Positions 3,024 to 53,379 are shown, counted from the first letter of the stretch. The stretch: 64,000 nt of DNA from Candidatus Poribacteria bacterium (GCA_028819845.1 JAPPKS010000006.1:1-64000), one strand, 5' to 3'. Translations and numbers: made by a program. Notes: generated from the letters alone by a model not told the origin.

Positions 3024-3106
3024 GGGGCGGCGCGGAACAGGGAATACAGGAGCGTGAAACCCATGGATAGGTTTCCACTTTTTTCTACCCTATTCCGCGC
3101 CATAGG
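3024..3106 (-). repeat. Spacer inverted repeat (TTATGRCGGG family), copy 1
   Basis: On the minus strand it opens with CTATGGCGCGGAATAGGG and closes with CCCTGTTCCGCGCCGCCCC, giving a long imperfect hairpin with outer stem GGCGCGGAA/TTCCGCGCC. It overlaps the last codons of the gene at 3090-3596, supplying its stop, and ends about 25 bases before the start at 2997. It is one of about 15 members in this window. Confidence 0.65.
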
Positions 3107-4659: not shown

Positions 4660-4710
4660 GTCCAATAAGAACCATTAGCGGACATCCCCCGCTCCCCGCC
4701 AAAAGTCTTA
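4660..4710 (-). repeat. Spacer inverted repeat, half copy
   Basis: The minus strand contains TTTTGGCGGGGAGCGGGGG, matching the opening arm of the TTATGRCGGG family. The closing arm is not evident. It lies just upstream of the gene starting at 4635, the usual location for this family. Confidence 0.4.
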
Positions 4711-4767: not shown

Positions 4768-4971
4768 TCAGTCATTCGACTGCTTCTTCTTGTTTGTGCT
4801 ATGCGTTAACCGACGAAGGTATTCGATGTTCATGTCGATACACTTGCGGATAAGCGAGCCAAAGGAAACCCCGGTCGCATACTTTGCTTGTTTTAAGATA
4901 GTATCTTGCCGTTCCGTAAGTTGTATCATCACTGTGGACCGTGCGGCATCCTTTTCTCCGTTCATGGACAC
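4768..4971 (-). CDS. Ribbon-helix-helix (Arc/MetJ-type) protein
   Basis: A 67-residue protein. GTG at 4971 is preferred because AAGGAGG lies 9 bases upstream; the ATG six bases later would be 15 bases away. The core TVMIQLTERQDTILKQAKY, then TGVSFGSLIRKCIDMNIEYL, has the strand-helix-helix pattern of Arc-like DNA-binding proteins such as CopG-type antitoxins and autorepressors. A close paralogue at 33379-33570 keeps the same GTG-TCC-ATG start and spacing. No toxin gene is adjacent. It probably binds operator DNA as a dimer. The targets are not visible. Confidence 0.75.
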   Translation of the reverse strand: MSMNGEKDAARSTVMIQLTERQDTILKQAKYATGVSFGSLIRKCIDMNIEYLRRLTHSTNKKKQSND

Positions 4972-4999
4972 TTTTTCTTTCCTCCTTAAATTTGGCAAA

Positions 5000-5165
5000 G
5001 GGTGACGGGGAACGGTCTCCACTGGAGTGTTGTGTCAATGGGAATAATCTACCCGCGCCCCGCCTTATTAAATTTTGGCGGCGGCAAACAGAACCAAGGA
5101 GACGGAATTGCTCAGCGAATCGTACGAACTGTGAGCAACCCAAGAGCTGGTTGTCACCGTACTAG
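5000..5165 (-). repeat. Spacer repeat plus shared 80-bp upstream block
   Basis: Positions 5000-5072 form a TTATGRCGGG-family inverted repeat (AAGGCGGGGCGCGGG ... CCCCGTCACCC). The preceding block 5073-5165 (minus strand: TTGGGTTGCTCACAG, CTCCTTGGTTCTGTTTGCCG, CCGCCAAAATTTAATAAGGC) is repeated almost base for base at 35037-35132. Both copies sit between a secreted-protein gene and a smaller gene. The conservation of a 160-bp composite argues for a unit that moves or duplicates as a whole. Confidence 0.65.
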
Positions 5166-11123: not shown

Positions 11124-11290
11124 TTATTCGACAATCGGCGGATAAACCACCGCACCCGAACCAGAAGGACCCGGCGCGCTGGACATACCACCAAGACCTC
11201 GCTTACCCGAATAGGCGTCCTATTTGACCATTCGGGTATCCGGCGGCAATCTGCGTTAGCCCGGTTGCCGCCATACAGACAATGTTGTAT
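11124..11290 (-). repeat. Decayed hairpin/peptide repeat
   Basis: The minus strand carries a hairpin (ACCCGAATGGTC ... GCCTATTCGGGT) and then a short frame ending LGGMSSAPGPSGSGAVVYPP before a stop at 11124. A homologous segment at 33690-33750 ends LGGMSIKPGQRGPGAVFLPT, and a DNA-level relative with the same AGGACGCCTATT hairpin precedes sodC at 35740-35880. These look like fragments of one dispersed element or of a lost small-protein family. Confidence 0.45.
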
Positions 11291-11573: not shown

Positions 11574-11924
11574 TGATGTTCTCCTTTTTTGGGATTAGCC
11601 TTAGCCGTTTGAATTCTCTTTGTGAGCTTTTTTCAAGATAAAGTCAATTGCTATCAAAGGCACACAATCAAAGCGAGTAATGCGATTGCTGGAGGACTTA
11701 TCTTGATTCCTAACCATATAGAGTTAAATAAGCAATCGCATTTTGATGGATATACCTTGGGCACACGCAATAATTCCAACTAACTGGCGCCGCGAAGACA
11801 TGGCACAAGACTGCCAAAGCGGCGGCTATTTTGCATTTCGAGCGAAACACGAACGATAAACGAACAAGCAGCGGCCTCCTCTCGTCGGCGCGAACAGAAC
11901 CAACTGCCATAAAGTCTATTGATA

Positions 11925-12583
11925 TAAATACAGGGAAATTCTCTCCCTCCTTCCATTCCCCGGCGAAGGGGAGCGGCAGGCATCACGGAGCCGTAATGTC
12001 GCCTCCTGCCGCGGGAAGGGAAATTGGACGCGTCAATCTCTAGAGCCGGACGGATCAGAAAAAGACGATCTGCCTCCCCTTTAATAGAACAAAAACCGTG
12101 CCAATGGTCGGTTTAAGGAGGAGTTCAACTCTGTAGAGACGGATAAATCCAGTGGTAGTCTAGCTTCGATGCGTATGGGAAGGAGCAAGGCGCGAAGTTA
12201 GCGTGACAGGGTGCAGGTTGAAAAAGTATCAAAATGAGACTGGCAAGGTGTGCAGAAATAGAGGAAATCGGCGGGGAATCCTGTAATGACGCGGGATGCG
12301 GACGTTTATCTCAAAATAGGACTGAGTCTCATTTTGGGACAAATGAAAGAGGGTTTAAGGACGGATTAGTTCATTCAAAAAAAAAATTTTAGCACAACTG
12401 TTTCAAGTTTTATTTATTTTTCGGTAATTTCTGAGTGATATGCGGTGCGGTTAGGAATCAGAACCTACCGGAATGGGCCGCGCAGTTTATACAACTTCAA
12501 TTTCCGATAAAGTGTTGATTGACCAATCTTCAACGCTTACACCTTAATGGGCAAGTATGACTGTCTAAACATTGGGGGTAAGT
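11925..12583 (+). repeat. 660-bp non-coding repeat with an IS3-type end, copy 1
   Basis: It matches 37703-38356: the last 390 bases differ at only about ten positions, and the first 270 are more divergent. The left part is highly foldable (CCTTCC ... GGAAGG enclosing CCCC-GGCGAA-GGGG and GCGGCAGG ... CCTGCCGC arms). A pair AAAATGAGACT/AGTCTCATTTT lies about 90 bases apart, followed by an A-run. The right end reads CTGTCTAAACATTGGGGG, the same IS end as at 2038-2056. No open frame is present and no left terminal repeat was found. It may be a non-autonomous element moved by an IS3-type transposase. Confidence 0.7.
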
Positions 12584-23837: not shown

Positions 23838-23906
23838 GGTGAGGGGGCGAGCCCTTTTTGGGCGAAAAAGGCTTGGTTAATGCTTTGCCCGCACCCCGCC
23901 ATATAG
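23838..23906 (-). repeat. Spacer inverted repeat (TTATGRCGGG family)
   Basis: The minus strand opens with TATATGGCGGGGTGCGGGC and closes with CTCGCCCCCTCACC; an inner GCCTTTTTCGCCCAAAAAGG hairpin lies between. It sits 67 bases ahead of the 23770 start. A second hairpin, GTCCGATATG/TATCGGAC, follows at about 23795-23820. Confidence 0.6.
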
Positions 23907-29246: not shown

Positions 29247-29322
29247 TAGGCGACGGGCTTTTGCTGGCGGAAAGGAAAGGGTTGCTGTATACCCCAAAAA
29301 GCGCCAGCCACCCGTCATTTAG
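29247..29322 (-). repeat. Spacer inverted repeat (TTATGRCGGG family)
   Basis: The minus strand opens with AAATGACGGGTGGCTGGCG and closes with CGCCAGCAAAAGCCCGTCGC. The outer stem GACGGG/CCCGTC and the inner stem GCTGGCG/CGCCAGC are perfect. It lies 120 bases after the small gene at 29443-29595. Confidence 0.65.
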
Positions 29323-29442
29323 ACCTTAGGATAGTTTTTTAATCGCGCCGGGGAGTGCAACAGTCGCATTGTGGATGAATTGTGGATAACTTTGCACGCT
29401 CTCGGTTATTTCACGTGTTCACTTTTTGACCTCCTGACACGC

Positions 29443-29595
29443 CTATTGAACGCCGAACGGCATGCCTTGATTCCAATTGCAACACCAGCACATCAAACGG
29501 CCGAACAGTTCCTCGTTCTCTAATATTTCGCCGGATTCGATTGCGCGAACAACTTCCTGCGCTTGACCCATTGGAACGCTATCAGAATTCGACAT
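29443..29595 (-). CDS. Small hypothetical protein with CWCC motif
   Basis: A 50-residue protein with a good ribosome-binding site (GGAGTGAGTA before ATG). The N-terminal half is acidic and helical (QAQEVVRAIESGEILENEEL); the C-terminal half holds CWCCNWN. Three cysteines within four residues could bind metal, but a fourth ligand is not obvious. It sits between the DnaJ-TPR gene and a spacer repeat, like other small genes here. No family was recognised. Confidence 0.55.
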   Translation of the reverse strand: MSNSDSVPMGQAQEVVRAIESGEILENEELFGRLMCWCCNWNQGMPFGVQ

Positions 29596-29693
29596 TACTC
29601 ACTCCGTGTGTTCTTGGTTAGCCTATGTAATTTCAAAGAGTTCTACAGGCGCAACGCGGACGGCGGCGGCAAGTTGGCGCCTGCGCGGTGATG

Positions 29694-30665
29694 CTACCAT
29701 TCAACCGGTTCCGTGAGGGAAGCGTTCCCATTTTTTAACTCATTCCTGGCTCTAAACCGCCCGTATCTAGCGTACTTAAAACCCGGTCTCAGACGTATTG
29801 CCTCATCAAAGTCTTGAATCGCGGCGGCGTATTGTTCCAGTTCATATTTCGCCCTACCCCGATAACAATACGCGTCGGCATAATCCGGTGTCGTGCGTAT
29901 CGCCTCGGTGTAGTCGTGAACGCTAGCCGCATAATGTCCTATCTCATACTTCGCCCTACCACGCCAGTAGTAGGCGTCAACATAATCCCGTTCCAAGCGT
30001 ATCACTTCGTCGTAGTCGTGAACACAAGCAGCATATTGTCCTAACTTAAACTTTGCCGTACCTCGCCAGTAATAATAAGCAGCAACATTATCTTCATGCC
30101 TAATCGCAGCGTCGAAGTCCGCCAGCGATGCGGAATATTGTCTTAGCTTATACTTTGCCCTGCCGCGCCAATAATGGCAGTCATCTAAATGACTAAGACT
30201 GAGTCGTATAGCGGCGTCAAAGTCTGGAATTGATGCGGCGTATTGTCTAAAGGCGTATTTCGCTACGCCGCAGGCGTAGTAAGCGTCCGCAAATTTTGGA
30301 TTAAATAGAATCGCAGCATCGAATTCCGCAATCGCATCAGCGTATTGCTCGAGTTCATACATTTGCGCACCATGCTCAAAATAACGAATGGCATGGGATT
30401 CTCTATCCAGTTGGTGCGTCCGAGTTCTTGACGGACGGTCTCTTTCCGGTCGCGGACTTTCCTCCTTTGCGGGTTTGCCTTTCACAAGTTGATTGGTAAT
30501 TACTTCGTATGCGTTTTGGACAAGTATAAAGCGAAGTTTTGCACCGGAGGACGGATCCTTGTCCGGGTGCATGACTTTCACGCGGTCACGATAGGCTTTC
30601 TTGGCATCGTCTAGTGTCGCATTGGATACCAGCCCCAAAACGCGAAATGCTTCCTTTCGTGTCAT
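29694..30665 (-). CDS. DnaJ-domain/TPR co-chaperone-like protein
   Basis: A 323-residue protein. Residues 1-65 are a J domain with the HPD motif at 33-35, needed to stimulate Hsp70 ATPase. A basic linker (about 70-95) leads to about six tetratricopeptide repeats at 98-305 (for example YADAIAEFDAAILFNPKFAD, AYYWRGRAKYEIGHYAASVH), which bind protein partners. There is no glycine-rich or zinc-finger part, so it is a type III J protein that probably directs DnaK to a TPR-bound client. No dnaK lies nearby. The start has no clear ribosome-binding site because a TAATGAG repeat run lies just upstream. Confidence 0.85.
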   Translation of the reverse strand: MTRKEAFRVLGLVSNATLDDAKKAYRDRVKVMHPDKDPSSGAKLRFILVQNAYEVITNQLVKGKPAKEESPRPERDRPSRTRTHQLDRESHAIRYFEHGAQMYELEQYADAIAEFDAAILFNPKFADAYYACGVAKYAFRQYAASIPDFDAAIRLSLSHLDDCHYWRGRAKYKLRQYSASLADFDAAIRHEDNVAAYYYWRGTAKFKLGQYAACVHDYDEVIRLERDYVDAYYWRGRAKYEIGHYAASVHDYTEAIRTTPDYADAYCYRGRAKYELEQYAAAIQDFDEAIRLRPGFKYARYGRFRARNELKNGNASLTEPVEW

Positions 30666-31084
30666 AGTGAGTAATGAGTAAAACGTAATGCTTAATGAGT
30701 TTTTGTAGGTTGGTTTGAACGGAGTAGACTATAAGAATATAAATGCGTCGCGTGTTTTATGCGGTTCGATTGCGTTAGAAAATTTGAATAATGGAGCGTG
30801 ACTCAAAGCATTTAGTTATGGTCATTTCGGCTCATACTTGAATACGGAGGAATTGACTAATTTATAATCGAGGCTAGGAAGCCTCTCCCACTGTAATTAC
30901 CCCCTCTAGCTCCCCCTTGTAAAGGGGGAGAATTTTTTTGTCTCTTTTTGATACAGCGGTTCTTGAGGGGAAGGTTCGAAGACTCGAAGGCTTAGGGACT
31001 ATCGTCTTCGCTGTCCGCTCAGTTGATGCCAACCTACAAAAACGGTTAACCCTCCGAGTCCATAGCCTGATTGCATTGATAAGC
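30666..31084. other. Repeat-rich intergenic region
   Basis: It holds a TAATGMG run (30665-30700), a TGTAGGTTGG repeat (30705-30800), the CGAGGCTAGGAAGCCTCTCC block (30868), an intact CTAGCTCCCCCTTGTAAAGG palindrome (30904-30935) and the motif CTATCGTCTTCGCTGTCCGC (31003). No gene was seen. Confidence 0.5.
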
Positions 31085-31153
31085 CTACGCGGCTAGTACC
31101 GCGAAAACCAAAAACGAGTAAGCAACTAATACAACACAGCATAGTAACTTCAT
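31085..31153 (-). CDS. 22-residue membrane peptide
   Basis: The start is behind AAGGAAATCACCA. The sequence is MKLLCC followed by a fully hydrophobic stretch (VVLVAYSFLVFAVLAA). It could be a one-helix membrane peptide, a lipoprotein-like signal with nothing attached, or the remnant of an exported gene. It is one of several tiny membrane peptides in the cassette-like region (31198, 36770, 2199). Confidence 0.4.
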   Translation of the reverse strand: MKLLCCVVLVAYSFLVFAVLAA

Positions 31154-31197
31154 TGGTGATTTCCTTATCTCTTGTTTAACTCGTGAATTCGGACGAA

Positions 31198-31287
31198 TCA
31201 GTGCAGTCGGCGAATTATGAACAGGAATAGGTAAATTCCACCGAATGCGGTGGCTAATATGAGTGCGAGATATATCCATTCAAGCAT
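31198..31287 (-). CDS. 29-residue membrane peptide
   Basis: The frame from ATG 31287 reads MLEWIYLALILATAFGGIYL then FLFIIRRLH. One long helix is followed by a basic end, so the positive-inside rule places the C-terminus in the cytoplasm. The ribosome-binding site is weak (GGATTGAAAA). It sits 44 bases upstream of the next tiny membrane peptide. Function is unknown. Confidence 0.4.
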   Translation of the reverse strand: MLEWIYLALILATAFGGIYLFLFIIRRLH

Positions 31288-31522
31288 TTTTCAATCCGAT
31301 CTGAGTAGCGACAGCGAGTGCAGTTTTTGTAGGTTTAGATCAGCGGTGTAGACAATGCGTCGCGTGTGGTATATACTTTGACTGCGTTAGGAAATAAGAT
31401 TAATGGAGTGTAACCAACCTACAAAATTTGAAAAAGACTAACGCTAATCGCTCAGTTGATCCTAACCTACAACGGCGTACCTACCTTTCAGTTGGCGTTT
31501 CATCGCAAAATAGGCCGTTACC

Positions 31523-31622
31523 CCTAAGTGTCAAGCGGGAGGCAGACACGCACTTACTGGAGGAAAGGCTTGGGATTCCAAAAGACCCCAGCCTATTCTT
31601 TTTAACGTGTCTGCCATAAGGT
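31523..31622 (-). repeat. Spacer inverted repeat, long-armed variant
   Basis: The minus strand opens with CTTATGGCAGACACGTTAAA and closes with GTGCGTGTCTGCCTCCCGC. The stem GGCAGACACG/CGTGTCTGCC is 10 bp perfect. An inner AGGCTGGGGTCTTTTGG/CCCAAGCCT arm lies between. It keeps the family's TTATGGC opening but with a different stem sequence, as expected if structure is what is conserved. Confidence 0.55.
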
Positions 31623-31654
31623 TAATTTCTATTTTGGATTTTGTAGGTATATCA

Positions 31655-31728
31655 AGGGTGACGGGGCGGGAGATGCGCTAACACGCAGAATTTCGTCAAC
31701 ACTGGCGCCCCCGCTTCCCGTCATAAGA
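31655..31728 (-). repeat. Spacer inverted repeat (TTATGRCGGG family)
   Basis: The minus strand opens with CTTATGACGGGAAGCGGGGG and closes with TCTCCCGCCCCGTCACCC. It lies 80 bases after the stop of the substrate-binding lipoprotein gene (31809). Confidence 0.65.
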
Positions 31729-31808
31729 TGAATCATTCAGCGCCGCTGATTACTATTCACATCGGAGTATTCACCCTAACGCACTAATCGCTGGCGGCAA
31801 AAGCCGTT

Positions 31809-33023
31809 TTACGGCGACACCGCTTCGTTTGCGGCGAAAGGCACTAGGTTGCCGTCCTTGATAATCAGCACAACCGGTTCGTAAAGCGCCTCGCCCTCGG
31901 CGTCAAATGAGAAGAGCCCGAGGTTGGTGCCAAAATCTTGCACCGCAGCCAAAGCATCGCGAATGGACATTGAATCCGGAATCGTAATTGACGCAGAATC
32001 CTCTGAAAATGTCGCCTCTAAAATCGCGTGGTAAAGGATGTAAAGCGCCGCGTATGACTGAGCTGCCCACGGGTCGGGCGCGATGCCGTATGCCGCTTGG
32101 TAGCCGGCAACAAACGACTGATTCATCGGATTGTCCACTGTGCTATCCCAACCGGTGAAAGTGATAACGCCGTCCGCCGCGGCGCCCGCTTGTTGAATAT
32201 CGTTGATACCTAATTCCGGAACGATATAATCCGCCTCAATGCCAATCTCCCGTGCTTGTACCACCACGCTCACGATTTCGGGAGCCAGACCTGAAACAAA
32301 GAGCGCGTCCGGGTTAACTTCCATTATCGCGGTCAATTGCGCTGTGAAGTCGGTGTCGCCGGATTGGTACGTCTCGGTCAACAACACTTCCACGCCGCGG
32401 TTCAAAAGCGCCGCCGCCAAGTGTTCGTAGCTGCTCGTGGAGTAGAGATCGGCGTCGTCATATATCATAGCCGCGCTTTCATAACCGATCGCCTCATGCG
32501 TAATGTAGACACCCGCCGGATTCATCTTATCTACGGCTAGGGCGGCGCGAAAAATGTAATCCCCTATGCTGCTCAGACCGGCGGCGGCTGACACGGAACT
32601 TAAAACCACTACCTGATTCTCTTGCGCTATCGGGAAAGCGTGCTGGGCTTGATTCGATATGGCAACCCCCACAATAGCGGGAACGCCCGCCTGAATCAGC
32701 CGTTCAAACGCGGATACCATGCCGTCTCGGGTGCTCATGTCATCCTCAACAAGGAAATTAATCGTAAGCAGGTTGTTCGGCAGCCCGTTGATTTCGTCGC
32801 GTGCAAGATTAAAACCGCGCTCCATCGATAGACCATACGGCGCGGCGTACTCGCCCGTGAGCGGCGCAACCAAGCCGATGTCAATCGAAGCAGGGGCTTC
32901 AATATCAGAACCGTCGTCCGTTTGGGTCAATAGTTCAGCTACTATATCGCAACCGCAAAGCCCGGCAACGAGACCGATAACCGCAGTTGCGAAAACGAAT
33001 TGGGAGATGCCTGTTCTAATCAT
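31809..33023 (-). CDS. ABC transporter substrate-binding lipoprotein (Leu/Ile/Val type), copy A
   Basis: A 404-residue lipoprotein (lipobox LCGC, Cys at about residue 25). The mature part matches the periplasmic-binding family of LivK and AmiC: IDIGLVAPLTGEYAAPYGLS, FNLARDEINGLPNN, VPAIVGVAISNQAQHAFPIA, AAMIYDDADLYSTSSYEHLA, YQSGDTDFTAQLTAI. Such proteins bind branched-chain amino acids, amides or other small ligands. No permease or ATPase gene is nearby, so it is an orphan receptor. Its start overlaps the stop of 33020-33220 (ATGA). It is a paralogue of 33759-34931. Confidence 0.85.
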   Translation of the reverse strand: MIRTGISQFVFATAVIGLVAGLCGCDIVAELLTQTDDGSDIEAPASIDIGLVAPLTGEYAAPYGLSMERGFNLARDEINGLPNNLLTINFLVEDDMSTRDGMVSAFERLIQAGVPAIVGVAISNQAQHAFPIAQENQVVVLSSVSAAAGLSSIGDYIFRAALAVDKMNPAGVYITHEAIGYESAAMIYDDADLYSTSSYEHLAAALLNRGVEVLLTETYQSGDTDFTAQLTAIMEVNPDALFVSGLAPEIVSVVVQAREIGIEADYIVPELGINDIQQAGAAADGVITFTGWDSTVDNPMNQSFVAGYQAAYGIAPDPWAAQSYAALYILYHAILEATFSEDSASITIPDSMSIRDALAAVQDFGTNLGLFSFDAEGEALYEPVVLIIKDGNLVPFAANEAVSP

Positions 33024-33220
33024 TGGGTGACTTTCCTTTGTTTGGATTTTTGGGTTATAGGTTTTACGCCTTCAATACGTTTTAGGAAGTCCTCAACCTC
33101 ATGGTGGGTTGGACGGCGTCCGCAGAGACGTTTGGCTGCGTCCGCGATGGTATCTAACAACTCATCCTCTTCGATTAGTTTTTGCGTTTCGCCGCGGAAA
33201 TCTTCAGGAGAATCGCGCAT
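33020..33220 (-). CDS. Small hypothetical protein coupled to the binding protein
   Basis: A 66-residue charged helical protein, start at 33220 behind AAAGGAAGAACA. The segment LLDTIADAAKRLCGRRPTHH resembles the N-terminus of the gene at 4195-4635, which also overlaps a downstream exported-protein gene by ATGA. A helix-turn-helix-like or assembly role is possible but not shown. Its leader contains a spacer repeat. Confidence 0.6.
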   Translation of the reverse strand: MRDSPEDFRGETQKLIEEDELLDTIADAAKRLCGRRPTHHEVEDFLKRIEGVKPITQKSKQRKVTQ

Positions 33221-33280
33221 TGTTCTTCCTTTCACCACGCATATAACGCCGTCAGTCGGCGTAATTGAATTTTGCAATAA

Positions 33281-33358
33281 AGGCGACGGGGGCAGGAATA
33301 CTCTGATACAGAGTAAGTCCGCAGGATTGGATCTTTTTTCCCGCGCCCCGTCATAAGA
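33281..33358 (-). repeat. Spacer inverted repeat (TTATGRCGGG family)
   Basis: The minus strand opens with CTTATGACGGGGCGCGGG and closes with TCCTGCCCCCGTCGCC. An inner TTACTCTGTATCAGAGTA hairpin is perfect. It lies between the ribbon-helix-helix gene (33379-33570) and the gene starting at 33220. Confidence 0.7.
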
Positions 33359-33378
33359 CAACCAAATATGTGCAAGGC

Positions 33379-33570
33379 CTAATCCTTCTCCTTCGCGTTA
33401 ATAGTCAACCGGCGAAGGTACTCAACATTCATGTCGATACACTTCCGAATAAGCGAGCCAAACGAAACTCCGGTCGCGTTCTTGGCTTCTTTCAAGATAA
33501 TTTCCTGCCGTTCCGTAAGGCGAATCATCACGTGGGATTGGGCGTCCTCTTTGTCGTTGTTCATGGACAC
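33379..33570 (-). CDS. Ribbon-helix-helix (Arc/MetJ-type) protein, paralogue
   Basis: A 63-residue protein closely related to 4768-4971. GTG at 33570 is preferred (GGGGG 9 bases upstream, the same spacing as the paralogue). The core is HVMIRLTERQEIILKEAKNA then TGVSFGSLIRKCIDMNVEYL, a strand followed by two helices, as in Arc-type repressors. No toxin is adjacent. A spacer repeat lies both upstream (33598-33668) and downstream (33281-33358), as for its paralogue, so the gene and its spacers may have been duplicated together. Confidence 0.75.
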   Translation of the reverse strand: MSMNNDKEDAQSHVMIRLTERQEIILKEAKNATGVSFGSLIRKCIDMNVEYLRRLTINAKEKD

Positions 33571-33597
33571 GTTATAGTACCCCCTTTCTTTTAACCA

Positions 33598-33750
33598 TGA
33601 GCGACAGGGAACGGATTGACACAAGAGAGTTGGGGCAATGAAAAGTGCTTTACCCGCGCCCCGTCATGCGTTGTTCGTCGGTAGAAAAACCGCACCCGGA
33701 CCACGCTGACCGGGTTTGATAGACATACCACCTAAATTGCCGTGCTGCTA
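33598..33750 (-). repeat. Spacer inverted repeat plus decayed peptide block
   Basis: Positions 33598-33668 (minus: GCATGACGGGGCGCGGG ... TTCCCTGTCGCTC) are a spacer repeat. Positions 33665-33750 contain the frame LGGMSIKPGQRGPGAVFLPT ending in a stop, homologous to 11124-11190. Confidence 0.5.
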
Positions 33751-33758
33751 TTAGTAGG

Positions 33759-34931
33759 TTATTCAAAGAATTCCAATTGACCATCGGCGACAATCAATAT
33801 TTTCGGCTCGTAAACCGCATCCCCGACGGCGTCAAAAGAGAACTTACCGAAGACAGTGTCGAAATCCGCGATATTTGCCAATGCGTCTCGAATCGCGTTT
33901 GCGTCAGTGGATTCGGCGTTGGCAATGGCTTCCGCCAGTACATGGAGCGTGGTGTAAGACCGCGCCGCGGAATTACTCGGCTCCACCCCGTATTTGGCGC
34001 GATAGGTCTGGACGAAAGCGCGGTTACCCGGTGTGTCGGCTGTACTTACCCACCCGACGAAAGTAATTGCCCCCTCGGCAGCCGCACCCGCTGCTCGTAC
34101 GTCAGCTATGGTCAAGGTTCGCATAACAAACGGCACCGAGTCGGGTATACCGAGTTGGCGCCCTTGGGTCAGAATTCCCGGTTTTTCCGGCGATAAAGAG
34201 GAGACAAAGATAATATCGGGATTTGCGTCCCTTATCCGAGATAATTGTTCGCTAAAGTCGGTGTCGCCGCCTTGAAACGCTTCTGTAACCAATACCTCAA
34301 CGCCCTTCGCGGCAAGCGATTCCCTCACCGCCGCATCGCTATCCGTAGAGAAGACATCGCTTTCATCGTACATCGTAGCGGCTTTTTGATAGCCGAGTTT
34401 TGCGTAAGTCGCCTCAATACCGCTTGGAATCAGCACGTCTGTGGTGAGAGAGACACGAAATGCATAATCGCCAATCGCGCTGAGACCGCGTCCGGCGGAT
34501 GTTGGGCTAAACGCCACGACCTGATTCTCTTGCGCAATCGGGAACACGACTTCTGCCTGACTTGAGGTAGCGGGGCCGAGGATAACGGTGACGCCAACCT
34601 GCGCAATCAGTTTATTGAATGCTTCAACCGCACCTTCAATGGTGCTTCGATCATCCTCTACGATAAACTTGACGCTTCTCTCTCCGAGTTTTGAGTTGTT
34701 AATCTCTTCGAGAGCGAGTTCATAGCCGTTGACCGTGGGTTCCCCAAATGTAGAGGTAAGCCGTCCCGTAATGGGTAGCACAACACCGATGGGAATCTCT
34801 ACACTCACATCTTCCATATCAGGCGGCGCGGGGAGGAGTAGTTGCCCAATCTGGTCACAAGCGGAAAGCCCAATTATGAAGAGGACAATCGCCGGTACAA
34901 ACGAAAATGGTGTAATTCTTCCGATATACAT
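33759..34931 (-). CDS. ABC transporter substrate-binding lipoprotein (Leu/Ile/Val type), copy B
   Basis: A 390-residue lipoprotein; the start at 34931 is chosen for the signal that follows it (lipobox LSAC), although the ribosome-binding site is weak. The mature part follows the LivK/AmiC fold: IPIGVVLPITGRLTSTFGEP, VNGYELALEEINNS, VTVILGPATSSQAEVVFPIA, AATMYDESDVFSTDSDAAVR, FQGGDTDFSEQLSRI. It is clearly a paralogue of 31809-33023, with different ligand-lining segments, so the two probably bind different small molecules. No permease or ATPase gene is adjacent. A composite spacer repeat lies upstream. Confidence 0.85.
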   Translation of the reverse strand: MYIGRITPFSFVPAIVLFIIGLSACDQIGQLLLPAPPDMEDVSVEIPIGVVLPITGRLTSTFGEPTVNGYELALEEINNSKLGERSVKFIVEDDRSTIEGAVEAFNKLIAQVGVTVILGPATSSQAEVVFPIAQENQVVAFSPTSAGRGLSAIGDYAFRVSLTTDVLIPSGIEATYAKLGYQKAATMYDESDVFSTDSDAAVRESLAAKGVEVLVTEAFQGGDTDFSEQLSRIRDANPDIIFVSSLSPEKPGILTQGRQLGIPDSVPFVMRTLTIADVRAAGAAAEGAITFVGWVSTADTPGNRAFVQTYRAKYGVEPSNSAARSYTTLHVLAEAIANAESTDANAIRDALANIADFDTVFGKFSFDAVGDAVYEPKILIVADGQLEFFE

Positions 34932-34962
34932 TTTGACATCCGTTGTTTTGAAATGAAAAATT

Positions 34963-35132
34963 TGGGCAGACGGGACACGAATTGACATAGGAGTTTCGTT
35001 TCCATGGGACAATTTATCCGCACCCCGCCATATTAAGTTTTGGCGGTGACAAACAGAACCAAGGAGATTGTATTATCCACAGCACTTACAAACTATGAGC
35101 AACACAAAAACTGTTTGCCACCATACGAGAGA
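34963..35132 (-). repeat. Composite spacer repeat, second copy
   Basis: Positions 34963-35037 are a spacer repeat (TATGGCGGGGTGCGG ... GTCCCGTCTGCCC). Positions 35037-35132 repeat 5073-5165 (TGTGTTGCTCATAG, CTCCTTGGTTCTGTTTGTC, CCGCCAAAACTTAATATGGC). Confidence 0.65.
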
Positions 35133-35714
35133 TTACTGCGATTCTGCCAACGCAATCACACCGCAGCCGATTCGCGCGCCGGCAGCCCCTGAGGGCTGGG
35201 ACGTAAAGTCGTCGGCGCCGGCATGGACGATTATGCCTTTTCCGACAACGTCGCGGATGGAACCGGTACCGATTTCCCAAAGGTCTGTCGCCAATTCGAT
35301 TTTGCCGGTGCCGTCCTCGCCAACCATTATATTGCCAATGTCTCCGAGATGAAATTCGCCCTCACCCCATTTGCCGTGGGCGGTGTTCGTCGGATTCCAG
35401 TGCCCGCCTGCCGATGTCCCGTCCGGTGCGCTGCAATCACCGTATTCGTGGATATGAACTGCGCGGAGCCCTGGTTCCGCGTTCTGAATTTCAATGGTTA
35501 GCGCGATTGTGTCTCCAATCTGTTCGAAAACCGCCGTACCGGTTACATTGCTCCCGCTTGTCGAACCTATCGATGCGTGCGCCTGTTCTGACGGCGGCGG
35601 CAACAGGTCAGCCAAATCCTGTACCGCATCACAACTCAGAAAAGCAATCGAAACGGCAATCACCAGTGACAGCATTAAGGCTTGTCTTCCAAACACGTTA
35701 ACCCCTTTTTTCAT
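35133..35714 (-). CDS. sodC: Cu/Zn superoxide dismutase, lipoprotein form
   Basis: A 193-residue lipoprotein (signal, lipobox FLSC; start behind AAAGGAGTTAACG). It converts superoxide to hydrogen peroxide and oxygen in the periplasm. The metal ligands are visible: the HIHEYGDC pair, the bridging region GGHWNP and HGKWGEGEFHLGDIGN, then IVHAGADD. The cysteines of GDC and IGCG can form the structural disulfide. The electrostatic-loop Arg of eukaryotic forms is replaced, as often in bacteria (GARIGCGV). Being anchored in the membrane suggests defence against external superoxide, for example from a host. It lies alone between two spacer repeats. Confidence 0.9.
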   Translation of the reverse strand: MKKGVNVFGRQALMLSLVIAVSIAFLSCDAVQDLADLLPPPSEQAHASIGSTSGSNVTGTAVFEQIGDTIALTIEIQNAEPGLRAVHIHEYGDCSAPDGTSAGGHWNPTNTAHGKWGEGEFHLGDIGNIMVGEDGTGKIELATDLWEIGTGSIRDVVGKGIIVHAGADDFTSQPSGAAGARIGCGVIALAESQ

Positions 35715-35739
35715 CGTTAACTCCTTTCGCTTTACTCCA

Positions 35740-35880
35740 TCAAATGGTAGAAAACGTACCCGAGCTACGCCGCCCGGCTGCGCTCGATCTAACACCAAAC
35801 TCGGGACTATTCTTGCCCAAATAGGCGTCCTGTACGCCTATTCGGTTACTCGACGACTACCGGGGTTAACCCGGCTCTCG
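35740..35880 (-). repeat. Hairpin-containing leader of sodC
   Basis: The minus strand has CCGGGTTAACCCCGG and a second hairpin (CGAATAGGCG ... CGCCTATTTGG), then a block resembling 11124-11190 and 33690-33750 at the DNA level. It may be a decayed repeat or a structured leader. Confidence 0.45.
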
Positions 35881-35884
35881 CCAT

Positions 35885-35966
35885 AAGGTGGCGGGGAATT
35901 ACTGCGATGGGAAAGGAAGGGTATTTCAGCCCCAATTAAAACCATCGCAGCCGCCCGTCATAAAGG
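35885..35966 (-). repeat. Spacer inverted repeat (TTATGRCGGG family)
   Basis: The minus strand opens with TTTATGACGGGCGGCTGCGA and closes with TCGCAGTAATTCCCCGCCAC. The inner CTGCGATGG/CCATCGCAG stem is 9 bp perfect. It lies between the gene at 36019-36306 and sodC. Confidence 0.7.
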
Positions 35967-36018
35967 GTTACCTGTTTACTTTGCCATTCACGATTTTCAC
36001 AATCGCCTAAGCACCGCA

Positions 36019-36306
36019 TCAAGCTTTACCGCTGGAATTTGCTCTGTCCACTCGTTCAAATTCGCAACTAAGGCTATCCATAACAAGCGTAAGTACATGT
36101 CCGTCCTGCCAATGCGATAAGCAATTGACGAGCGTGTATAAAAAGTGTCTGGCATCTTCGGGTTTCGTTCCGAGAGGCAATCGTATTTGACTAGTTCCAA
36201 GGTATAAATCTAATTTAATTAACCGAATCGACTTGATATTGTCCGCATTGATAAACCATATTTTGTCATCGTTGGCATTACAAGGGACAATGTAAATCCA
36301 TCTCAT
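36019..36306 (-). CDS. Small hypothetical protein
   Basis: A 95-residue soluble protein, start preceded by GAAGGTAATAGCCC. It is strand-rich at first (MRWIYIVPCNANDDKIWFIN), then has a DLYLGTSQIRLPLGTKPEDA segment and a helical end. A spacer repeat precedes it (36330-36400) and another follows (35885-35966), so it looks like one cassette of the series. No family was recognised. Confidence 0.6.
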   Translation of the reverse strand: MRWIYIVPCNANDDKIWFINADNIKSIRLIKLDLYLGTSQIRLPLGTKPEDARHFLYTLVNCLSHWQDGHVLTLVMDSLSCEFERVDRANSSGKA

Positions 36307-36329
36307 GGGCTATTACCTTCGTTCGTAAT

Positions 36330-36400
36330 AAGGCGGCGGGGACAGGAGCAGTGTTAGTTGTTCTGTCAATTGGCTAGATTCCCCCACTCCCGTCATAAGC
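36330..36400 (-). repeat. Spacer inverted repeat (TTATGRCGGG family)
   Basis: The minus strand opens with CTTATGACGGGAGTGGGGG and closes with CTCCTGTCCCCGCCGCCTTA. It lies 24 bases upstream of the 36306 start and is directly adjacent to another copy at 36417-36506. Confidence 0.7.
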
Positions 36401-36416
36401 AAAACAGTTACGTTAA

Positions 36417-36506
36417 AAGGCGGCAGGCAACAGGGATAAGGAAGAATACGTTAAGCGATCGCACATAACGCCTAATCATCAAAAAACCCTGCCGCCCGCC
36501 ATAAGA
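36417..36506 (-). repeat. Spacer inverted repeat (TTATGRCGGG family)
   Basis: The minus strand opens with CTTATGGCGGGCGGCAGGG and closes with CCCTGTTGCCTGCCGCC. The stem GGCGGCAGG/CCTGCCGCC is 9 bp perfect. Together with 36330-36400 it forms a tandem pair, as if a gene between two spacers was lost. Confidence 0.7.
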
Positions 36507-36531
36507 ACTTGACTTGCTTTCATTTTGCGTT

Positions 36532-36633
36532 TCACCGTCCGCGGCACAACCGGCGGTTGCGTCCGTATCCGCAAAATGTGCAAAGTCCCTTTCGCCCGCT
36601 GTGCGCGCCACTGAATAATTCAAGTGTATCCAT
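36532..36633 (-). CDS. Possible 33-residue cysteine peptide
   Basis: The frame from ATG 36633 encodes 33 residues with GLCTFCGYGRNRRLCRGR at the end: three cysteines, two in C-x-x-C. No ribosome-binding site is present. It lies between spacer repeats, where small genes are expected. It could equally be a gene remnant in another frame. Confidence 0.2.
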   Translation of the reverse strand: MDTLELFSGAHSGRKGLCTFCGYGRNRRLCRGR

Positions 36634-36769
36634 GCCGAACTGCGGACAATATGTTGGGACTTTTTTCAGACTGGGTATTTTTTAGTTTTTTTTGTGTCTA
36701 TATTCGTAACAAAACGCCTTTCGCGCCAGACATAAGAGCGTATTGGTTTAAATGTTCGTTAAAATCAAT

Positions 36770-36859
36770 CTAGAGGAGATGCTCTAGCATGAAAGTAACA
36801 ACGCCAGCAAGTAATCCAATAATGAAAAAATAAAGGAGTAGAAAACCAAAATTGAACAT
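36770..36859 (-). CDS. 29-residue membrane peptide
   Basis: The start follows TGGAGGTGAAACA, a very good ribosome-binding site. The sequence is one hydrophobic helix (FGFLLLYFFIIGLLAGVVTF) and an end with MLEHLL. It is a probable single-pass membrane peptide. It lies directly behind a spacer repeat, as do the other small genes here. Function is unknown. Confidence 0.5.
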   Translation of the reverse strand: MFNFGFLLLYFFIIGLLAGVVTFMLEHLL

Positions 36860-36885
36860 TGTTTCACCTCCATTTGCCGAAATAA

Positions 36886-36954
36886 GTGAGGGGGCAAGTG
36901 CGGGGGTGGTCGGTGTCCCGTTGATAAACATAGGAGCGCGCTTCACGTCATGAG
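36886..36954 (-). repeat. Spacer inverted repeat, degenerate
   Basis: The minus strand opens with CTCATGACGTGAAGCGCGC and closes with CACTTGCCCCCTCACTTA. The stems are weaker than in the other copies. It is 25 bases upstream of the 36859 gene. Confidence 0.45.
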
Positions 36955-37050
36955 TTGATACATAGCGTCTAAGCATCGCAATCAGTGCCGCCCGCCAAAC
37001 AACCGTGCCATGCAATCAGTATGTGTTTCACCTAAGGCGGATTGATTGAA

Positions 37051-37123
37051 AGGGTGACGAGGGCGCGCGTTTGCGTTACAATCTGAAATCCATCGACAAA
37101 TGAGTCCCCCGCCCAGTCTTAAG
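37051..37123 (-). repeat. Spacer inverted repeat, degenerate
   Basis: The minus strand opens with CTTAAGACTGGGCGGGGG and closes with GCGCGCCCTCGTCACCC. It lies 90 bases after the lipoprotein gene at 37214-37573. No gene with a good start lies between it and 36954. Confidence 0.5.
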
Positions 37124-37213
37124 ACCTCTGTCAGTATTGTTAATCCGACCGGTCTTGACGATCTCAGCGATACTTTTTTCTCCGATTGAAGACAATGGTC
37201 TCTATCAGGAAAT

Positions 37214-37573
37214 CTATCCAACTTCTGCGTGGGCAGACCAGGTGCTAAATGATTCTCCTGATGCATCAAGCTTGATGTTCATCTTTTCACCCGGCGGCAA
37301 GGGCAAGTAGCTTGGCATAGTTGGACCTAGTTCTGTGCCATTTGACAGATGGACTTCAACTCTAACGCGTTGCAGTGTACTGCTGGTGGTATTTTCTACC
37401 GTACCAACAAACGCCCTTGTTGCGGCATCGTAGTTGAGTATTAACCTTGCACCGCTTCGTACATCATCATAAGTGTCGCCTTTGGCAAGCATTTGTAACG
37501 ATTCTTCGTCCTCTACCGTGCCGCAAGCGAGGATAGCGATCAGCACCGTGAGTAAAACAATGTTGAATTTCAT
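37214..37573 (-). CDS. Small lipoprotein with a single beta domain
   Basis: A 119-residue lipoprotein (lipobox ILAC, Cys at about 17), start behind AAAAAAGGACTATCAA. The mature region has Ig-like alternating strands: ATRAFVGTVENTTSSTLQRV, RVEVHLSNGTELGPT, then LPPGEKMNIKLDASGESF and STWSAHAEVG at the end. The N-T-T-S-S-T-L-x-x-V-R-V-E-V-H-L pattern is that of FxLYD-like or cohesin-like small exported domains. Function is unknown; an envelope role is inferred. Spacer repeats flank it on both sides. Confidence 0.75.
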   Translation of the reverse strand: MKFNIVLLTVLIAILACGTVEDEESLQMLAKGDTYDDVRSGARLILNYDAATRAFVGTVENTTSSTLQRVRVEVHLSNGTELGPTMPSYLPLPPGEKMNIKLDASGESFSTWSAHAEVG

Positions 37574-37594
37574 TTGATAGTCCTTTTTTGTAAT

Positions 37595-37692
37595 TTAAGC
37601 ATACAAATTCAACTGGGGCGGAAATATATTATGTAGCCTTCCATTTAGCTATTGCATCATGCCCTAAAACAGAAGCAACCGCCATAAGGTCA
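37595..37692 (-). repeat. Spacer inverted repeat, degenerate
   Basis: The minus strand opens with CTTATGGCGGTTGCTTCTG and has TTTCCGCCCCAGTTG at the other side. It sits just before the gene starting at 37573 and directly after the left end of the 660-bp repeat. Confidence 0.4.
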
Positions 37693-37702
37693 ATTTAAAT
37701 AA

Positions 37703-38356
37703 AATATAGGGAATTCCCTTCCCTCCTTCCATTCCCCGGCGAAGGGGAGCGGCAGGCATCACGGAGCCGTGATGTCGCCTCCTGCCGCGGGAAGGAAAAT
37801 TGGATGCGTCAATCTCTTGGACCGGCCGGATCAGAGAAAGACGAATTGGCTCTCATAGTATGGCACAAACCGTGCCAACGGTCAGACCAAGGAAAGGTTC
37901 AACTCTGTAGAGACGGATAAATCCAGTGGTAGTCTAGGTTCGATGGATTTGCGAAGCAGCCGGGCAGGCAGTTAGCGTGACAGGGTGCAGGTTGAAAAAG
38001 TATCAAAATGAGACTGGAAAGGCGTGCAAAAATAGAGGAAATCGGCGGGGAATCCTGTAATGACGCGGGATGCGGGCGTTTATCTCAAAATAGGACTGAG
38101 TCTCATTTTGGGACAAATGAAAGAGGGTTTAAGGACGGATTAGTTCATTCAAAAAAAAAATTTTAGCACAACTGTTTCAAGTTTTATTTATTTTTCGGTA
38201 ATTTCTGAGTGATATGCGGTGCGGTTAGGAATCAGAACCTACCGGAATGGGCCGCGCAGTTTATACAACTTCAATTTCCGATAAAGTGTTGATTGACCAA
38301 TCTTCAATGCTTACACCGTAATGGACTAGTATGACTGTCTAACATTGGGGGTAAGT
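37703..38356 (+). repeat. 660-bp non-coding repeat with an IS3-type end, copy 2
   Basis: The second copy of 11925-12583. The foldable left part has the perfect arm CATCACGGAGCCGTGATG (the other copy has one mismatch in it), then the GCGGCAGG/CCTGCCGC arm. The right end reads CTGTCTAACATTGGGGG, with one A fewer than copy 1. It ends inside a type ISP restriction-modification gene (38357-38491). No open frame and no left terminal repeat were found. Confidence 0.7.
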
Positions 38357-53157: not shown

Positions 53158-53235
53158 GTCCTAATCGAAAATGCCGCCGCCGCATAACAGCGGCGATTTT
53201 CCGACCTGAATCGATAATTGTGGGTTAACTCGTGT

Positions 53236-53322
53236 TTTCCTACGCTGGGATTACCCAGGTCAGGTTCAAAGGGTTTGTTCTCAGCCCTCGCCGACCCTTT
53301 ATAATAGAGAGAGCACCCCTAA
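53236..53322 (-). promoter_or_regulatory. TPP riboswitch (THI element) of thiC
   Basis: The minus strand has the THI-box signatures in order: AGGGGTGCTCTC at the 5-prime end, GGCGAGGGCTGAGAACAAAC, then CCTTTGAACCTGACCTGGGT and AATCCCAGCGTAGG. These are the conserved thiamine-pyrophosphate-binding parts (CTGAGA and ACCTGA-x-CTGG-x-TAAT). Ligand binding would stop expression of thiC-thiO-thiS. Confidence 0.92.
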
Positions 53323-53379
53323 CAACCTATACTGCGAGCTATATTACATCATTTAAACAAAAAAGTCAAGAAAAAGATA

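Follow-up and report, generated by a model that had tools for sequence, protein, structure and literature searches.

The 64-kb window, by which we mean the whole stretch of DNA analysed here (64,000 nucleotides), carries some 15 related hairpin-forming sequences, all of them on the gene (minus) strand and in one stretch of the genome, where the sequence and its alignments place them between co-directional genes and mostly directly 5′ of genes that are unrelated to one another. We tentatively read them as locus-restricted, structured intercistronic hairpins that may act in the transcript, as 5′-leader or mRNA-end elements of the following gene. Strand and spacing evidence puts this reading first, ahead of a recombination site for gene cassettes, its main rival, and of a passive repeat, which ranks third.

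An earlier note had listed 16 copies of a minus-strand inverted repeat in this region, and 14 of these sites proved to be imperfect hairpins (Table 1), including one (36886) that belongs to the family by its edges although most of its pairing has been lost. The other two did not hold up: 4660 is a half-element rather than a full copy, and the sequence at 37595 pairs poorly, its CATAAGG edge belonging to a separate conserved region of ~490 bp. That region occurs at window positions 37667–38127 and 11782–12353, on contig C15 (L106 8317–8915) and at loci L109 and L110, and lies upstream of several gene arrays in the same genome and of genes in relatives. The common orientation and edges described for the repeat (opening CTTATGRCGGG, closing CCCCGYCRCC) were borne out. 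In gene orientation the main type reads CTTAT/GRCGGGG-n-GCGGG ... CCNGC-CCCCGYC/RCCYTT, with edges marked by slashes. Its outermost pairs lie 60–64 nt apart in 10 of 11 copies and 68 nt apart in the remaining copy, and its stem consists of 6–7 pairs, as a rule one additional base on the 5′ arm, and then a shorter inner part. Throughout the family the loops are ~35 nt long, the break between the stem parts is mostly 0–2 nt, and many copies have an unpaired base on the 5′ arm. Stems other than that of the main type, with similar edges, were found at 31523, at 29247 and 35885 (type II), at 36417, at 3024 and in the hairpin at 35045–35122; TAT/G ... /RCC edges or close variants are common to all types. 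The type II copies have a loop sequence in common, while their inner stems are different yet fully complementary. The claim that the stem sequence varies while pairing holds is thus correct between types; it fails within the main type, where covariation is at the level of shuffles (81.7% of cells paired vs 82.6%). The T hairpin directly follows the stop codon of sodC, of a 917-codon gene and of a small ORF on contig C6, and tandem hairpins without an intervening gene also occur in the array.

Table 1. Hairpin elements and selected genes of the array (window coordinates unless a contig is named; R1, covariance model described in the text)
Feature	Position	Strand	Site in earlier note	Detection and folding	Surroundings and remarks
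Hairpin, own stem (GGCGCGGAA/TTCCGCGCC)	3029–3101	−	3024	R1 match 3021, E 3.7e-4, outside training set; z −9.1	30 nt before gene with 121-aa frame
Half element, 5′ arm only	4685–4701	−	4660		before 156-aa gene
Main type	5004–5064	−	5000	R1 62 bits, in training set	38 nt before second RHH gene copy
T hairpin	5080–5158	−		78% identity with 34990–35134	after stop of 917-aa gene; adjoins element 5004–5064
Main type	23841–23900	−	23838	R1 48.8 bits, in training set	30 nt after TonB-domain gene
Type II (outer GACGGG/CCCGTC, inner GCTGGCG/CGCCAGC)	29252–29316	−	29247	hairpin scan; R1 match 29244, E only 0.8, outside training set; z −3.9	
Element, own 10-bp stem (GGCAGACACG/CGTGTCTGCC)	31541–31615	−	31523	hairpin scan 11.2; z −4.5	
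Main type	31660–31722	−	31655	R1 52.7 bits, in training set	86 nt after SBP1
SBP1, periplasmic binding protein (Peripla_BP_6)	31809–33023	−			
Main type	33285–33352	−	33281	R1 57.4 bits, in training set	26 nt after RHH; 64 nt before ORF66
RHH, small ribbon-helix-helix-like protein	33379–33564	−			NikA-like E 0.0086, below curated cut-off
Main type	33603–33665	−	33598	R1 55.2 bits, in training set	38 nt before RHH
SBP2, periplasmic binding protein	33759–34931	−			
Main type	34969–35029	−	34963		37 nt before SBP2; SBP2 homology to relatives stops at 34968
T hairpin	35045–35122	−		hairpin scan 10.7	10 nt after sodC stop
sodC, Cu/Zn superoxide dismutase	35133–35714	−			
Type II	35890–35959	−	35885	R1 match 35882, E 0.014, outside training set	59 nt after 95-aa gene
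95-aa protein, no family	36019–36306	−			
Main type	36335–36394	−	36330	R1 53.5 bits, in training set	28 nt before 95-aa gene
Element, 4-nt stem bulge	36422–36500	−	36417	R1 match 36414, E 2.3e-4, outside training set	tandem with 36335–36394
Decayed main type	36888–36949	−	36886	edges kept, most pairing lost; z +1.1	28 nt before 29-codon membrane peptide
Main type, weak pairing	37056–37118	−	37051	R1 53.7 bits, in training set; z −0.1	95 nt after 119-aa gene
Two further elements	C6:2734–2810 and C6:3008–3087			R1 matches	

A covariance model, R1, was built from 10 copies (eight from the window and two from contig C6) and scores these training copies at 48–62 bits by construction; it recovers three of the copies left out at E ≤ 0.014 and a fourth only at 0.8. 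In the 4.6-Mb genome its matches are confined to the first 37 kb of this contig and to one end of C6, apart from a weak match on C30 (E 0.13); with 150 of 700 candidates scored in the initial pass, weaker copies may be missed. No convincing site was found by R1 in 97 other genomes; three isolated weak matches (G022, G074 and G093) were scattered singles and were judged to be due to chance, as were seven scattered pattern matches in seven public genomes, and viral contigs gave no pattern matches. A scan blind to stem sequence (GGN/G..stem..C/ATA) found four matches on the gene strand and none on the other, against 0.1 expected from shuffles. The density of scan matches was 18 per 100 kb in window positions 1–38000; in a 400-kb sample of contig C35 from the same genome it was 1.25 per 100 kb. 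These figures speak to localisation and strand more than to existence, because the edge rule was drawn from these copies. Within the genome the type II loop is present just at its two sites and the T hairpin in three places, all in arrays. An unrelated repeat at 30816–30891 contrasts with the confined hairpins in being dispersed, in one search, on many contigs of the genome.

The copies are non-random with respect to strand and gene edges, which upholds the earlier view of a structured, same-strand, gene-edge element. That note had named random placement and a lack of covariation as results that would count against it; of these, the second is what was found for the main type. Compared with dinucleotide shuffles, folding is better on the gene-sense strand than on the complementary one (p 0.004, or 0.021 when the T copies are left out), and G-T mispairs outnumber A-C mispairs by 30 to 9 in a fit that scores both alike, although both tests treat related copies as independent and hence overstate significance. 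Coding-strand C-to-T mutation could also be the source of the G-T excess. Where a gene follows directly, 28–38 nt separate the end of the stem from the start codon in seven of nine cases (window: 28, 28, 30, 37, 38, 38 and 64 nt; C6: 36 nt; site 23838: 70 nt), and the distance from the previous stop codon to the element varies from overlap to >100 nt. It is this combination of gene-sense folding, excess of G-T over A-C and 28–38-nt spacing that favors a role at the RNA level. A transcript-strand-specific structure upstream of a gene is what characterizes a cis-regulatory RNA, and such a structure is predicted here; like the leaders of the Rfam cis-reg class the elements are structured, specific to the putative transcript strand and situated directly upstream of the ribosome-binding site. 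Unlike those leaders, they have no Rfam match inside the array, the main type is without covariation, the downstream genes are unrelated, and the family occupies one locus in one genome. Pairing of the elements with the ribosome-binding site of their own gene gave no specific signal (p 0.31). Among other structures in the window, two related intergenic sequences on the minus strand (35736–35892 and 11130–11282) are strongly structured (z −3.2 and −2.9) and constitute a candidate structured RNA with no Rfam match, and a TPP riboswitch lies outside the array at 53220–53330 on the minus strand, above the Rfam gathering score.

The genes of the array encode two periplasmic binding proteins, sodC, RHH-like, DnaJ-TPR, TonB-domain and secreted proteins, and small ORFs. 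At 29694–30665 a DnaJ domain is fused to TPR repeats with a period of 102 bp. Copies of SBP2, 76–80% identical, are found on contig C5 of the same genome and in relatives, where the gene and its 5′ leader are present and the element is absent, and DNA homology to the copy in relative G006 breaks off at 34968, a single base short of the stem. Homology of sodC to contig C19 runs from 35132 (the sodC stop codon) to 35696. The RHH gene is duplicated, together with its upstream element, at 4805–5062; the element of this second unit resembles that at 34963 and has a T hairpin on its other side. These homology ends, the second RHH unit and its likeness to 34963 indicate that the elements are mosaic and coincide with breakpoints, a pattern for which homologous recombination between copies accounts as well as site-specific recombination does. 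A C15 locus was considered as an ancestral, element-free state and rejected, because the binding-protein copy there is broken up into short frames and loss by deletion is equally likely. Tandem arrays of paralogous periplasmic binding proteins are present on C5 (L073) and in relatives G001, G004 and G006.

The array resembles integrons in several respects. As with attC sites and clusters of attC lacking an integrase (CALIN; PMC9024848), same-strand hairpins separate unrelated genes in a single array, and, as in attC, sequence-diverse stems have an outer and an inner part, with one 5′-arm base left unpaired in many copies, although an attC site also has an unpaired central spacer between its R and L stems and the break here is mostly 0–2 nt. 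The hairpins could therefore be viewed as folded recombination sites of an integron-like cassette array, attC analogues with GRC/GYC cores and CTTAT/RCCYTT edges that are acted upon by a tyrosine recombinase, with the platform gene lost, on a missing contig or among the recombinase genes of the genome. We regard this as possible though unlikely, and its more specific form, an integron-like gene-cassette system whose folded site differs from attC (core GRC...GYC, edges CTTAT/RCCYTT) and whose recombinase does not belong to the IntI family, as unlikelier still. Besides the single strand, single array and unrelated genes, the tandem hairpins with no gene between them, the differing stems with similar edges and the end of SBP2 homology one base before the stem all suit it, and the unpaired 5′-arm base recalls the extrahelical bases on the R''-L'' arm in the definition of attC (PMC2727003). 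The genome contains six Phage_integrase genes, none inside the array and none above the IntI cut-off, and at 96.6% completeness it leaves room for a missing contig. Nevertheless, the array is not a canonical integron, because the integron integrase model (integrase_gron, TIGR02249) gave no match above cut-off in its own genome (four partial matches, the best 41 bits vs a cut-off of 265) and no RYYYAAC/GTTRRRY core boxes occur in the 15 hairpins in either orientation. The earlier note had remarked on the absence of attC cores, correctly, and on a cassette-like layout, which in its standard form is not supported in view of these two results and of gene-sense folding. It had named RNA leaders as a further option and had favored a structured element that serves recombination or regulation; the structured gene-edge element is supported, the standard cassette is not. 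In predicted folding energy the top (gene-sense) strand is favored, whereas attC recombination uses the bottom strand (PMC2727003); this would count against attC sites, as would the near-constant spacing to the next start codon, and the element mosaics require homologous recombination only. IntI genes above cut-off are present in two relatives. Relative G003 has an IntI-like gene above cut-off and was tried as a true-integron comparison; scanning its contig for hairpins with core boxes revealed no attC-like array. Among the papers searched, none links integron, attC and Poribacteria. As separate observations, a tyrosine recombinase fragment is located on the window's own contig (G000:C11:85621–86085) and a fuller, related-looking tyrosine recombinase gene near the end of contig C23 (C23:20049–20555).

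It is improbable, in our estimation, that the family is a functionless local repeat, an inactive MITE- or REP-like palindrome multiplied regionally by duplication and gene conversion, although decayed and tandem copies, a main type without covariation and the three Y1 transposase genes of the genome would agree with this. Those Y1 genes lie on C9 and C26 and the R1 matches on C11 and C6, so that no R1 match is at a Y1 transposase gene, whereas REP palindromes with a RAYT transposase would flank one. Mobile palindromes are normally dispersed, and MITEs in both orientations, whereas all types found here occupy one array on one strand; this also makes the general seeding repeat suggested earlier unlikely. 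No signal of target-site duplication was obtained, since the flanks of each element match no better than swapped flanks (p 0.22–0.51), with 29247 alone having CTAAAT on both sides. REP and CGTC-tagged palindromes (PMC3733652, which also gives the REP types) are likewise short, intergenic and plausibly transcribed, and have CGTC at the stem end; those families are, however, repeated across genomes, and the CGTC stems of 8–9 bp enclose loops of 4–5 bases, whereas the present family has loops of ~35 nt, occurs in a single orientation and is not linked to a transposase. A passive repeat would not be expected to show strand-specific folding or a regular distance to the start codon.

The leader or mRNA-end reading thus remains the one that we prefer. 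In its favor we count the different but complementary inner stems of type II, the SBP2 copies that lack the element and the single locus; against it, the absence of main-type covariation, the relatedness of the copies and the negative results for Rfam and for pairing with the ribosome-binding site. Nor are tandem copies without a gene between them, decayed copies before genes (36886, 37051) or restriction to one array typical of a regulatory leader. We propose that transcription would form a hairpin immediately 5′ of the ribosome-binding site, which may set the translation or the stability of each cistron, and that the elements may have been copied from spacer to spacer via local duplication and homologous recombination. 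Such copying would explain the single locus, the single strand, the mosaic copies and the decayed ones.

It is unusual for a hairpin family to be restricted to one array and one strand and to lie beside genes that are unrelated; only half of this pattern is matched by dispersed palindromes, and only half by integron attC arrays. If the elements are leaders, they would illustrate the spread of a single structured RNA along an array of genes, and if they are recombination sites, they would represent a cassette system without IntI.
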